The notes beneath the pieces are model-generated. The model was not told where the DNA came from. It saw only the letters and a list, made by a program, of their open reading frames with translations, and did no database searches. From Spirochaetota bacterium (GTDB taxonomy: Bacteria > Spirochaetota > GWE2-31-10), in NCBI GenBank assembly GCA_022361115.1, contig JAKSBL010000491.1:1-33321 (forward strand): a stretch of 33,321 nt of DNA, written 5' to 3'. Made by a program: the position numbers and the translations under genes. Within the stretch, counting starts at the first letter, position 1; each line of letters begins with the position of its first letter. Shown here in pieces: positions 27,440 through 30,501 of this stretch.

Positions 27440-27520
27440 AGAGAAAGTCATTTTCATCCTATCCGGATATAGATTTTGTAATCACTTTAGCAAATGGATA
27501 TGTTCAAAATGACTCTCTCT
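27440..27520 (-). promoter_or_regulatory. Leader inverted repeat upstream of glpA (candidate GlpP RNA target)
   Basis: Arms 27506-27520 and 27440-27454 are 15 bases each; on the minus-strand RNA they pair with a single G-U. The arms (AGAGAGAGTCATTTT and AAAATGACTTTCTCT) and the loop motif TATCCA...AAAGTG match the glpK leader terminator. No T-run follows. Instead the downstream arm overlaps a second small hairpin (TTCTCT-AGTA-AGAGAA, 27430-27445) that abuts the Shine-Dalgarno GAGGAG at 27424-27429, so alternative pairing could affect translation. Confidence 0.6.
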
Positions 27521-27585
27521 CCTCCTGTCATCTGGTACTTAACTTACCGAACAAAATCCTTTTTTTAAAAAGTTTTTGATCATGT

Positions 27586-27625
27586 TAAAAAAATCATGGA
27601 GAGAAGATATCTCCCCTCCATGATT
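27586..27625 (-). terminator. Intrinsic terminator after glpK
   Basis: On the minus strand a 34-base near-perfect hairpin (27592-27625, two G-U pairs) beginning AATCATGGAG and ending CTCCATGATT is followed by a run of T. On the plus strand the same two positions become A-C mismatches, so the element is built for the minus strand. It should reduce read-through from glpK into glpA. Confidence 0.88.
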
Positions 27626-27643
27626 AAAGAAGGGTGTAATATT

Positions 27644-29140
27644 TTAATTAGCCCAGGATCTAGCTCTTTCTACAGCTTTTTTCCAGCCTGAGTAATCTTT
27701 TTCTCTTGCTTCGTGAGAATACTTACTATTGAAATTTCTTTCCATGTTCCAGTTATTTTTAATATCATCTTTTGAAGTCCAGAAACCTACAGCCAGACCT
27801 GCTAAATAAGCAGCACCTAAAGCCGTTGTTTCAATAACAGCTGGTCTTTGTACTTCTACTCCAAGGATATCAGATTGGAACTGCATCAAGAAGTTATTAG
27901 CACTTGCACCACCATCCACTTTAAAAGTAGTTAAATTAATACCTGAATCATCTTTCATTGCTTCCACAACATCTCTAGTTTGGTAAGCAATAGACTGGAG
28001 AGTCGCACGGGTAATATGGTTTTTATTAACACCTCGGGTTAAACCAACAATTGCACCACGTGCATACATATCCCAATAGGGGGCACCTAATCCGGCAAAA
28101 GCAGGAACGACATAAACACCATTGGTATCTTCAACTTTTTGTGCATAATATTCGCTATCTGAAGCATCTGCAACCATTTTTAATTCATCACGTAACCACT
28201 GAATGGAAGCACCAGCAATAAAGATAGAACCTTCCAATGCATATTCTACTTTTCCATCTAATCCCCAGGCAATAGTCGTGATTAACCCATTTTTAGATGG
28301 AATCATTTTTTCACCTGTATTCATCAGAACAAAACAGCCTGTTCCGTAGGTATTTTTAGCCATACCAATATCAAAACAAGCCTGGCCAAAGAGAGCTGCT
28401 TGTTGATCACCAGCAATACCTGCAATTGGAATTTCCACACCACCAAACAGAGAGCTTTCTGTTTTACCATATATATGAGAAGATGGTTTAACCTCAGGCA
28501 GCATGGATTGAGGAATACCGAGGGTATTACAAATATATTCATCCCATTTTAGATCTTTAATATTGTAAAGCATGGTTCGGGAAGCATTGGTATAATCTGT
28601 TACAAATACTTTGCCTTTAGTCAGGTTATAGATTAACCAGGTATCAATATTACCCATTGCTAATTCACCATTATTGGCTTTTTCCCGAACACCCTCAACA
28701 TTATCTAAAATCCATTTTACTTTTGTTCCGGAAAAATATGCATCAATTACTAAACCGGTATTTTCTCTAACATAAGATTCTAAACCCTGTCTTTTTAAAT
28801 CATCACAAATACCTGCAGTTCTTCTACATTGCCAAACAATAGCGTTATGAACAGGGGTTCCGGTTTTTTTATCCCAAACAACTACTGTTTCCCTTTGGTT
28901 AGTTATCCCAATTGAAGCAATTTCTTCTGGCTTTGTATTAGCTTTTTGTAATACTTCTCGAGCTACACTTAATTGTGTGTTCCAGATTTCAATTGGATCA
29001 TGCTCAACCCAACCGGCTTTTGGGTAGTATTGAGTAAACTCTTTCTGAGCTACATTTATGATTTCACCACCTTTATTGAATAAAATGGCTCTTGAACTGG
29101 TTGTTCCTTGATCTAACGCTAAAACGTATTTTTTTTCCAT
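27644..29140 (-). CDS. glpK: Glycerol kinase
   Basis: Phosphorylates glycerol with ATP to sn-glycerol 3-phosphate in the cytoplasm, trapping it and making the inducer of the regulon. The 498-residue length is standard. FGGY-family features: [12 protein letters not shown] at the start, [22 protein letters not shown] with the catalytic aspartate, [15 protein letters not shown] for the nucleotide and phosphate loop, and [20 protein letters not shown] near the end. In the stretch where several Firmicute enzymes carry the HPr-phosphorylated histidine (YGKTVDYHF in my memory), this protein reads YGKTESSLF, so that control seems absent. GGAG precedes ATG 29138-29140. It follows the membrane protein by 50 bases. 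Confidence 0.97.
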
Positions 29141-29190
29141 ATAAATCTCCTATTTTATTTCTATCAAGATATACAATTTATCTTATTCAC

Positions 29191-30096
29191 TTAAAAAACT
29201 AGTGGAATCGCACTATATATTCCTACTGTAGCAAATAATATTGATATTGAAGTCATAGTTGCAATGGCACCAGCTGGCGGATCAATATGAGTATCCCCCC
29301 AGATATTAAATAACCTTGCGTACAGCTCACCAATCAATGCACCTCCAATACCAAAAATTGCTCCCCAGAGAATACTGCCACCACTAGCAACAGTAGCTAC
29401 AGCAGCCGGCAAAGTAATATGATGTGTAACTGGAACTTTTGTACCAAACTGGATAAATACTAAACTGGCAGCTGAGATACCAAATCCTAAAACCATCCCG
29501 CCATTAGGTACGCTAACTGCTAAATAAGAACCAAAGAGTCCGGCTCCGAGACCAATTACTAACACCTGTAATAAACTACTCTGCCAGGGAACCCAGCAAT
29601 AGGAACTACTAGGTGAAAAACGGGATTCACCAGCAGGTACTTTTCCAAGTAAACCTGTACTACTAAACAGAACCCGTGATAACATTCCAGATAAGAAAAC
29701 AGTTAAAGCAACTGTATCTGTCCAACCACCTGGCATTGCTAACAATATGTTTAATACATAACCAAGAACTCCAAAAATACCACCAATTAATAATACATCA
29801 AAGCTATTGGCTCCCATCATGGCCAAATTTACACTTCTTCCACTTTCACCTTCGCCAAGTTTATTTCTTTTAGCAGCAAATGCTGTAGCAGCAACACCAG
29901 CAGCAAATCCACCCACATGAGGGCCCCAGGCACCAAAAGCAACTGTACTGGTAAAATCTCCATTACCGGTTGCTACATTAATTGCTACACCTGCTATAAC
30001 AAGAAAACCTACGAATATAAACGCTGTTTGCGCACCAATTGCCGCACCAAAAACACCACTGGCAAATGCCAGTAAAAAACCAGTTAAACTAAACAT
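29191..30096 (-). CDS. Multi-span membrane protein in the glycerol operon (candidate glycerol uptake protein)
   Basis: A 301-residue, glycine- and alanine-rich integral membrane protein with about nine or ten hydrophobic segments. Conserved-looking polar spots sit between them: STVAFGAWGPHVGG, PVTHHITLPAAVA and DTHIDPPAGAIA, the last two with histidines and prolines that could line a pore or bind substrate. It lacks the two NPA motifs of GlpF aquaglyceroporins and I do not recognise its family name. Its place between the GlpP-type leader and glpK is where glpF normally stands, so glycerol transport is the simplest inference. AAGGAG is seven bases before ATG 30094-30096. The 53-residue membrane protein just upstream may be its partner. 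Confidence 0.88.
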   Translation of the reverse strand: MFSLTGFLLAFASGVFGAAIGAQTAFIFVGFLVIAGVAINVATGNGDFTSTVAFGAWGPHVGGFAAGVAATAFAAKRNKLGEGESGRSVNLAMMGANSFDVLLIGGIFGVLGYVLNILLAMPGGWTDTVALTVFLSGMLSRVLFSSTGLLGKVPAGESRFSPSSSYCWVPWQSSLLQVLVIGLGAGLFGSYLAVSVPNGGMVLGFGISAASLVFIQFGTKVPVTHHITLPAAVATVASGGSILWGAIFGIGGALIGELYARLFNIWGDTHIDPPAGAIATMTSISILFATVGIYSAIPLVF

Positions 30097-30206
30097 CTTT
30101 CAACTCCTTCAATTATTTTTGTCACTTTTTTTAATTTTTTGGATCACATTTTTTTTGCATTAAGTCATAACAAACCCCCTTTTCTCTGCAAAACAAGAAT
30201 ATTCGG

Positions 30207-30368
30207 CTAGCATAAATATTTCTTTAAAAAGAAATCTGCAATAATCAGAACCAAAAACCAGTTAATCCATTTTTGTCCCTTTTGATAAATTTTAATCGAA
30301 GAAACTGTCATTCTTTTAAACAGCTTCTGGGAACCATAATGAGTTTCTAATGCACCGGTAATCTTCAT
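30207..30368 (-). CDS. 53-residue small membrane protein at the head of the glycerol operon
   Basis: A short gene: MKITGALETHYGSQKLFKRM at the start, a basic middle (KIYQKGQKW) and one hydrophobic segment at about residues 35-47 (NWFLVLIIADFF), ending KKYLC. The Shine-Dalgarno AAAGGAG lies seven bases before ATG 30366-30368, and the codon usage looks normal for the window. It is the first gene after the leader terminator and 110 bases before the 301-residue membrane protein. I know no homologue. It may be a small subunit or regulator of that protein, or a leader gene. Confidence 0.72.
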   Translation of the reverse strand: MKITGALETHYGSQKLFKRMTVSSIKIYQKGQKWINWFLVLIIADFFLKKYLC

Positions 30369-30386
30369 AAGCAAACTCCTTTTTTT

Positions 30387-30419
30387 GAAGGACAGCTCCC
30401 TTAAATGGAGTTGTCCTTC
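30387..30419 (-). promoter_or_regulatory. Hairpin directly upstream of the small-protein ribosome site
   Basis: GAAGGACA (30387-30394) and TGTCCTTC (30412-30419) with inner CTCC/GGAG, one mismatch and a seven-base loop. On the minus strand it is followed by a run of A and then AAAGGAG, so it is not a terminator. Its CTCC could also pair with the ribosome site. Confidence 0.5.
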
Positions 30420-30430
30420 CGATTTTATTT

Positions 30431-30501
30431 AAAAAAAAGAGAGTCATTATAAACACTTGTCTACCCACTTTGGATAGCACTTAGTTTATAATGGCTCTCT
30501 T
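30431..30501 (-). terminator. Leader terminator of the glpK operon (candidate GlpP antitermination site)
   Basis: On the minus strand, 18-base arms (30484-30501 and 30437-30454, one C-A mismatch) enclose a 29-base loop that itself folds as CTATCC-AAAGT-GGGTAG, and the hairpin is followed by eight T (30431-30438). It lies about 90 bases after the predicted transcription start and before the first gene, just downstream of glpP, the same arrangement as glpP-glpFK in Bacillus, where GlpP with glycerol 3-phosphate prevents leader termination. Confidence 0.82.

Follow-up and report, generated by a model that had tools for sequence, protein, structure and literature searches.

A tandem-RGAGA hairpin as a candidate GlpP antitermination element in two glycerol gene leaders of a Spirochaetota bacterium

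The stretch of DNA analysed here (the window) spans 33,321 nucleotides (nt) of contig JAKSBL010000491.1 from a Spirochaetota bacterium (assembly GCA_022361115.1) and holds a glycerol gene cluster on its minus strand. In the order of that strand, glpP is followed by leader 1, a gene for a membrane protein of 301 amino acids (aa), glpK, a terminator, leader 2, a glpO-like gene, an FAD oxidoreductase gene and a DUF1667 gene (Table 1). GlpP1, the product of glpP, has structural relatives in PDB (3kts, 1vkf). The product of the gene downstream of leader 2 combines a DAO domain with a BFD [2Fe-2S] domain, and among NCBIfam families it fits type 2 glycerol-3-phosphate oxidase best (336 bits, short of the cut-off of 460); on these sequence matches the gene appears better named glpO-like than glpA. 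Our results suggest that both leaders carry a binding element for GlpP1, consisting of two tandem RGAGA repeats in a closing stem whose 3′ strand is shared with a long hairpin, and we put the probability of this reading at roughly 80%. Hairpins of this kind precede related genes in several bacterial phyla and in Escherichia coli as well, and they are probably what GlpP-type proteins recognise so that transcription can go on.

The closing stem is AUGGC/GCCAU in leader 1 and AUGAC/GUCAU in leader 2, and surrounds RGAGR, two nucleotides and AGAGA. Because the 3′ strand of this antiterminator stem, together with the second repeat, doubles as the 5′ arm of the long hairpin, the small and the long hairpin are mutually exclusive. 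Folded in isolation, the element reaches −6.0 kcal/mol in leader 1 and −4.0 kcal/mol in leader 2. The two long hairpins had been noticed in a preliminary description of this DNA, and they are indeed found on the minus strand. The first folds at −34.9 kcal/mol (z −7.3; none of 200 shuffles equally low) and runs into a T-run. The second ends without one, as had been described, and folds at −26.0 kcal/mol (z −3.3; 1 of 200 shuffles) or, with longer flanks, at −26.4 kcal/mol (z −2.35; 3 of 200).

The stem arms and an AAC are common to both leaders, as had also been pointed out. In contrast, the loop motif that they were said to share (TATCCA, AAAGTG, CAA) did not hold up: the loops alone score 12, a value reached by 408 of 2000 shuffles, and the motif was not seen in the other leaders inspected. 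We rejected it as part of the code, since loop likeness is at chance level. Local alignment of the leaders, used because MAFFT on both whole leaders misplaced the right arms, gave a score of 25. Of 2000 dinucleotide shuffles, 8 scored this high, and none of the remaining 95-nt windows in the 33 kb (3264 in all) did so (best other window 24). The best alignment comprises 30 nt, ATGGCAAGAGAAAAGAGAGCCATTATAAAC with ATGACAGGAGGAGAGAGAGTCATTTTGAAC, and begins 5′ of the left boundary drawn in the preliminary description; the shared core starts ~12 nt upstream of that boundary. The code is a tandem-RGAGA antiterminator hairpin that overlaps only the left arm of the hairpins first described. The original idea of one GlpP-linked code in both leaders is supported by comparison, but the code does not consist of arms and loop.

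For this comparison, 59 glpP loci were gathered with an alignment of three GlpP proteins, by title from Clostridia, Fusobacteria, Bacilli and others; a genome scan with a single GlpP found no relative, and a nine-protein alignment was too diverse. On inspection of these loci, a recurring RGAGA-spacer-RGAGA was noticed before terminators. The repeats sit inside a short closing stem, mostly of 3–7 bp and differing in sequence among GlpP clades, which contributes its 3′ strand to the terminator's 5′ arm. A search that selected by repeats and terminator only, and was blind to the stem, gave 53 matches across the 2.0 Mb (both strands) of the 59 loci; the reversed sequences had none, and the counts in three block shuffles were 0, 1 and 1. 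All but one of these matches (52 of 53) have a closing stem, and they are spread over 37 of the 59 loci. Most of the stemmed elements (45 of 52) lie at most 1400 nt upstream of a same-strand glp gene recognised by BLAST; about four of the other seven look genuine.

Over 71 sources, the same selection gave 59 matches, 43 of them non-redundant. A closing stem of at least three Watson-Crick pairs was present in 42 of these 43 elements, a count that keeps four seemingly non-glp cases (window position 13155, L049, L055 at 7696, and L059), compared to 20.2 (standard deviation 2.9) for permuted flanks, with 0 of 2000 permutations as high. Similarly, in a set of 28 elements from 18 genomes, hand-picked from earlier results and including leader 2, the stem was found in 27, against 12.8 (standard deviation 2.5) after permutation (0 of 5000 as high). 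The covariation score of alignment A5 was 0.393 versus 0.168 for shuffles, but it was 0.302 when slid by +3 and is partly circular. Model R1 includes sequences from this genome, along with a set picked by a stem-aware scan. The expectation values (E) of R1 and the pair counts of A5 are partly circular, and therefore two models, R2 and R3, were built without this genome.

Model R2 consists of ten elements, all from other genomes, and was run on this genome and 40 relatives, which are among 59 relatives without a PF04309 match over the cut-off. Leader 1 was the top match of the 41 genomes (35.6 bits), followed by an element on contig C679 of this genome (27.2 bits), while the best match in the other 40 genomes reached 23.0 bits; an element on contig C714 (21.8 bits) and leader 2 (20.0 bits) lie in the score range seen in those 40. 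Within the window, the leader 1 element had E 7.4e-8 and leader 2 was the second match (E 0.0019), the next match having E 0.17. We also searched 98 genomes of the order to which G066 belongs, the Romboutsia genome that includes locus L072; this set is not fully independent, as G066 and G067 gave training elements and G080 carries the training-element sequence of L009. In this order, 51 genomes have PF04309 over the cut-off, and 10 of the 11 genomes that R2 matched at E ≤ 0.01 are among them. At E ≤ 0.1, 17 of 37 matches lie at most 10 kb from glpP. Inspection of 30 R2 loci by eye found element and terminator at the match in 18, and the next open reading frames (ORFs) there resemble glpF, glpO, glpP, glpQ or DUF1667, with one glpO/FAD fusion; one inspected locus has an additional element ahead of a glpT-like gene.

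A second, YgcP-like GlpP (GlpP2) is encoded at the start of contig C142 of this genome, which also has three sites of a second stem class (class B, RUUACU/AGUAAY), each with a terminator and with TTGACA-17-TATNNT ending 4–6 nt 5′ of the element. The genes behind these sites resemble those of the E. coli ygc cluster. Model R3, made from two E. coli elements and four elements of loci L037 and L042, ranked these three sites first over the 41 genomes, the best score elsewhere being 23.4 bits. It also matched Streptomyces clavuligerus (29.4 bits, E 1e-4; L142, 6748-6815), between glpP and genes for a short-chain dehydrogenase/reductase (SDR), an FAD oxidase and an FGGY kinase. The leaders of the window do not belong to class B: R3 gives no match at either of them, and its window maximum of 14.1 bits lies off the leaders. 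In a GlpP tree of 63 of 70 proteins, 32 of them labelled by stem, the second GlpP and E. coli YgcP are sisters (100/95), and both have class B elements. Stem class matches GlpP clade: the five stem labels need four changes on the tree, the minimum possible, against a shuffled mean of 14.8 (0 of 200 as low), with the caveats that class A alone needs two changes, that support for class B is only 61/81, that the Bacilli label lumps several stems and that near-copies favour clustering.

These sequence comparisons make one code linked to GlpP in both leaders well supported, because the element precedes glpF/glpK and glpO-like genes in relatives, because leader 1 and, in the window, leader 2 are recovered by models that contain no sequence of this genome, and because stem classes are distributed in line with the GlpP tree.

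For leader 1, the mechanism is likely antitermination. It has the computable features of a GlpP-conditional terminator, namely a terminator with T-run before glp genes, an antiterminator sharing its 5′ arm, and a glpP in the genome. GlpP1 is encoded just upstream of the leaders on which it would act. Without inducer, the long hairpin would form and transcription would end before the 301-aa gene and glpK. When glycerol 3-phosphate is present, GlpP would bind and hold the small hairpin, so that the terminator is blocked and the operon transcribed. The computation shows the element, the overlap behind the two exclusive structures, the position ahead of glp-type genes close to glpP in other bacteria, and the match of stem class with GlpP clade; GlpP binding, glycerol 3-phosphate as ligand and this direction of control are what we infer. 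The promoter-like sequence upstream of leader 1 should be read in the light of the region as a whole, where such sites are not enriched (7 found versus 12 in shuffles). A 53-aa ORF (MKITGALETHYG...) lies between leader 1 and the 301-aa gene, at 30207-30368 on the minus strand, and a 13-bp inverted repeat lies just 3′ of leader 1 (30387-30419), without a T-run on the minus strand.

Leader 2 would be the same element at a place where relatives carry element and terminator before glpO. Stretches upstream of glpO in relatives have element and T-run in 9 of 18 cases (L023, L026, L071-L076, L081), and two further ones (L034, L045) look similar. Upstream of leader 2, glpK ends in a strong terminator. 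Since the T-run is missing here, leader 2 most likely represents a terminator that is weak, aided by a factor or decayed, or else an element of mRNA stability.

Several observations weigh against a common GlpP-read element in both leaders. By the strict rule, 22 of the 59 glpP loci have no element; among these, L041, L043, L044 and L068 have looser variants, L069 has repeats without a stem, and in L025, L031 and L040 glpK directly follows glpP. No convincing element was found near glpP in L010, L013, L015, L016, L139 (Klebsiella), L140 (Listeria) and L141 (Cupriavidus). R2 is narrow. At E ≤ 0.1 it matches 25 of the 98 genomes of the Romboutsia order, comprising 17 of the 51 with PF04309, which leaves 34 glpP genomes without a match, and 8 of the 47 in which no glpP passes the cut-off. 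A terminator was lacking, by the rule used, at 12 of the 30 inspected R2 loci. One genome, G135 (L154), has an R2 match of 31.9 bits with a terminator and no PF04309 match over the cut-off. R3 gave 29.7 bits in G067, a genome that has a class A locus as its sole PF04309 match, and no element with terminator was found at the R3 match. The remaining points concern leader 2. Its first repeat is GGAGG, no promoter match exceeds 7/12 within 110 nt of it, and its hairpin lacks the T-run that belongs to a GlpP-conditional terminator. Moreover, genome-wide it is not distinguishable from background, because seven R2 matches in the 40 relative genomes score above its 20.0 bits.

An alternative explanation might be that GlpP reads only the single-stranded tandem purine repeat and so masks the terminator's 5′ arm, the closing stem being of little weight. 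The repeats are the most constant part of the element, with GAG and GAGA columns invariant in alignment A4, and HutP reads NAG repeats according to the accessible part of a review (PMC7430163). Part of the stem excess may also reflect a 5′ strand that resembles the 3′ arm of the terminator anyway. Yet, closing stems occur far above permutation despite their differing sequence, and a repeat-only signal therefore seems unlikely. Another regulator, or a metabolite acting through a riboswitch, could read the element while glpP is merely adjacent, and the strong R2 match of G135 would fit such a reader. This is highly improbable given the R2 matches close to glpP, the agreement of stem class with the GlpP tree and the GlpP antiterminator known in B. 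subtilis (accessible part of PMC7430163); at the gathering threshold, Rfam finds no family in the window and only sok in six related stretches. The likeness of the leaders might even be chance between purine-rich terminator arms, as the best other window comes within one point of their score. We give this hardly any credence, because few shuffles reach the score, models without this genome find both leaders in the window, and the repeat and terminator controls are near zero.

A more substantial doubt is that leader 2 could be a relic, left by decay or by chance, in which the element was inherited but no longer controls the glpO-like gene. The absence of a T-run, a best promoter of 7/12 and the relatives that have element and T-run at this position are in line with a relic, whereas leader 2 keeps a 15-bp stem and a 6-bp closing stem and is recognised by R2 within the window; we consider a relic possible, though doubtful. 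Leader 2 might act as a translational ON switch for GlpP; the preliminary description had suggested a translational or other switch there. The small hairpin that it placed next to the Shine-Dalgarno sequence is present and touches that sequence, but it shares bases with the long hairpin, and the missing T-run would suit a switch of this kind. When the GlpP hairpin is imposed in folding, TTTCTCT becomes free to pair beside the Shine-Dalgarno sequence, and the unpaired probability of the start codon falls from ~0.9-1.0 to ~0.1, with that of the Shine-Dalgarno sequence likewise lower. In the modelled GlpP-bound state, both would thus be more paired, which would make an OFF switch. Because the folding effect has the wrong sign, we rejected translational activation, which is very unlikely. 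The GlpP1-binding element in both leaders remains our preferred reading, with antitermination at leader 1 and a weak terminator, stability control or decay at leader 2.

Elements resembling those of the window occur elsewhere in this genome. Class A elements with terminators precede two polyketide synthase genes, on contigs C679 and C714, of which the former encodes an FkbH domain (310 bits, cut-off 146.65). FkbH loads glyceryl units. We infer that both polyketide genes are under GlpP1 control, and their leaders raise the possibility that secondary metabolism, too, is gated here by a sensor of glycerol 3-phosphate. The C679 site was reached through exact matches of the pattern GAGAGYCATTNTNAAC; with up to three mismatches the count of this pattern was near the control (535 + 524 versus 447 + 416), and the repeat pattern with two mismatches was not above the control in sum (41 + 51 versus 46 + 32). 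A one-mismatch GAGAGYCATTNTNAAC match on C43 was set aside, as no terminator was seen by eye in the stretch inspected, and R1 matches on C150, C415 and C30 (E 0.41 to 0.65) were dropped for the same reason.

Table 1. Genes, leader features and related elements; positions without a contig or locus refer to the window, and G000 is the genome of the window.
Feature	Location	Strand	Evidence
glpP (GlpP1)	30718..31344	-	G3P_antiterm PF04309, 193.5 bits (cut-off 27)
Promoter-like TTGGCA-17-CATAAT upstream of leader 1	30594..30622	-	consensus match 10/12; such sites not enriched (see text)
Leader 1 antiterminator element	30490..30514	-	stem AATGGC/GCCATT, loop A-AGAGA-AA-AGAGA
Leader 1 terminator hairpin and T-run	30431..30507	-	5′ arm includes antiterminator 3′ strand
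301-aa membrane protein, in the place of glpF	29191..30096	-	no Pfam or NCBIfam match
glpK, glycerol kinase	27644..29140	-	TIGR01311, 757 bits (cut-off 590)
Terminator after glpK	27592..27625	-	15-bp stem, then T-run
Leader 2 antiterminator element	27507..27533	-	stem AUGAC/GUCAU, 6 Watson-Crick pairs in all, loop A-GGAGG-AG-AGAGA
Leader 2 long hairpin	27441..27520	-	no T-run, tail TTTCTCTAGT; fold −26.4 kcal/mol
Small hairpin TTTCTCT/AGAGAAG beside Shine-Dalgarno of glpO-like gene	27429..27446	-	forms in modelled GlpP-bound state
glpO/glpA-like FAD oxidoreductase with BFD domain, downstream of leader 2	25978..27417	-	Pfam/NCBIfam matches
FAD/NAD(P) oxidoreductase, glpO-like operon	24704..25963	-	Pyr_redox_2, 120.8 bits
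DUF1667 protein, glpO-like operon	24314..24691	-	PF07892, 121.2 bits
Class A element and terminator before polyketide synthase gene	L090 (G000:C679) 5495-5580		fold −25.9 kcal/mol
Class A element and terminator before polyketide synthase gene	L121 (G000:C714) 1576-1655		fold −30.5 kcal/mol
Class B site before major facilitator superfamily (MFS) gene	L022 (G000:C142) 2199-2120	-	R3 29.0 bits; fold −26.9
Class B site before SDR, FAD-linked oxidase and FGGY kinase genes	L122 (G000:C608) 8057-7990	-	R3 39.3 bits; fold −28.0
Class B site before genes for two electron transfer flavoprotein (Etf) proteins and FAD-linked oxidase	L125 (G000:C564) 5355-5425		R3 34.6 bits; fold −28.6
E. coli MG1655 class B element and terminator between ygcW and yqcE	L127 16503-16570	+	
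E. coli MG1655 class B element and terminator, divergent, between ygcW and yqcE	L127 16366-16298	-	

Relatives of the 301-aa membrane protein were found in 11 of the 98 genomes of the Romboutsia order (12 matches). One of them (G128:C22) sits between glpP and a glpO element, and the Enterococcus gilvus glpP locus has a partial match of 38% to this protein. A second pair of glpK and glpO-like genes lies on another contig of this genome (L018, G000:C256, 430-800), where no element is visible upstream by eye. Class B elements also occur as divergent pairs near glpP, in L037 (2166-2201 plus, 2052-2012 minus) and L042 (534-569 plus, 420-381 minus), with one side before a homologue of the C142 MFS gene and the other before a different gene. 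The class B element of S. clavuligerus lies in a high-GC genome. In L164, L177 and L179, element and terminator precede glpP itself, which suggests autoregulation of glpP in these genomes.

Taken more broadly, we lean towards the view that PF04309 antiterminators share a tandem-RGAGA grammar with clade-specific stems, that the two paralogues of this genome thereby serve separate regulons, and that the code also covers the ygc clusters of E. coli and Streptomyces. The regulon of GlpP1 (GGC/GAC stems) would then comprise the glycerol operon, the glpO-like gene and the two polyketide synthase genes, one with FkbH. GlpP2, like YgcP (UUAC stems), would serve an oxidation regulon of Etf, FAD-linked oxidases, SDR, FGGY kinase and MFS genes, and the same code would govern the ygc cluster in E. 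coli K-12 and its Streptomyces counterpart. A short, searchable element would let GlpP regulons be predicted from sequence. The two classes amount to naturally swapped stems with which specificity could be tested, and the ygc genes of E. coli K-12, so far uncharacterised, would gain a testable switch and regulator.

Among known systems, TRAP recognises repeated short purine-rich motifs; it differs from the system described here, where two RGAGA copies lie in a closed loop and the protein family is unrelated. HutP likewise involves repeated short purine-rich motifs (accessible part of PMC7430163), and differs in the same two respects. BglG/LicT with its ribonucleic antiterminator (RAT) has a similar logic, in which a protein-stabilised antiterminator hairpin overlaps a terminator. 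However, the LicT target is a hairpin with two bulges, as far as the accessible part of the review shows (PMC7430163), whereas the element here has a tandem-RGAGA loop and a PF04309 protein; the regulator of the operon, to which this check was confined, matches only PF04309 and no BglG-type RNA-binding family with PRD domains.

The ygc cluster of E. coli K-12 is a closer parallel: its YgcP groups as sister to GlpP2 of this genome, and class B elements with terminators precede ygcW and yqcE-ygcE. Their stem class differs from that of the window leaders. Neither a function nor an RNA element for the ygc cluster is given in the accessible literature, including the accessible part of PMC3946193. 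The accessible literature likewise holds no cross-species definition of the RNA element and no YgcP targets, most subscription papers and the primary B. subtilis papers being outside this scope.

The closest known system is GlpP of B. subtilis, whose conditional terminators (glpD, glpFK, glpTQ) likewise combine a GlpP-family protein, a leader terminator and glycerol genes. Antitermination by glycerol-3-phosphate-bound GlpP, as given in the accessible part of the review (PMC7430163), is consistent with our model of leader 1. The comparison is made via Bacillaceae relatives (Cytobacillus, Halobacillus, Oceanobacillus), which have the element before glpD, rather than via the B. subtilis leaders themselves. 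Compared to B. subtilis, this genome has in addition another leader that lacks a T-run, a further GlpP with a stem class of its own, and likely polyketide targets. GlpP antitermination is known; what is newly laid out here is an RNA code that spans phyla, with two stem classes in one genome.

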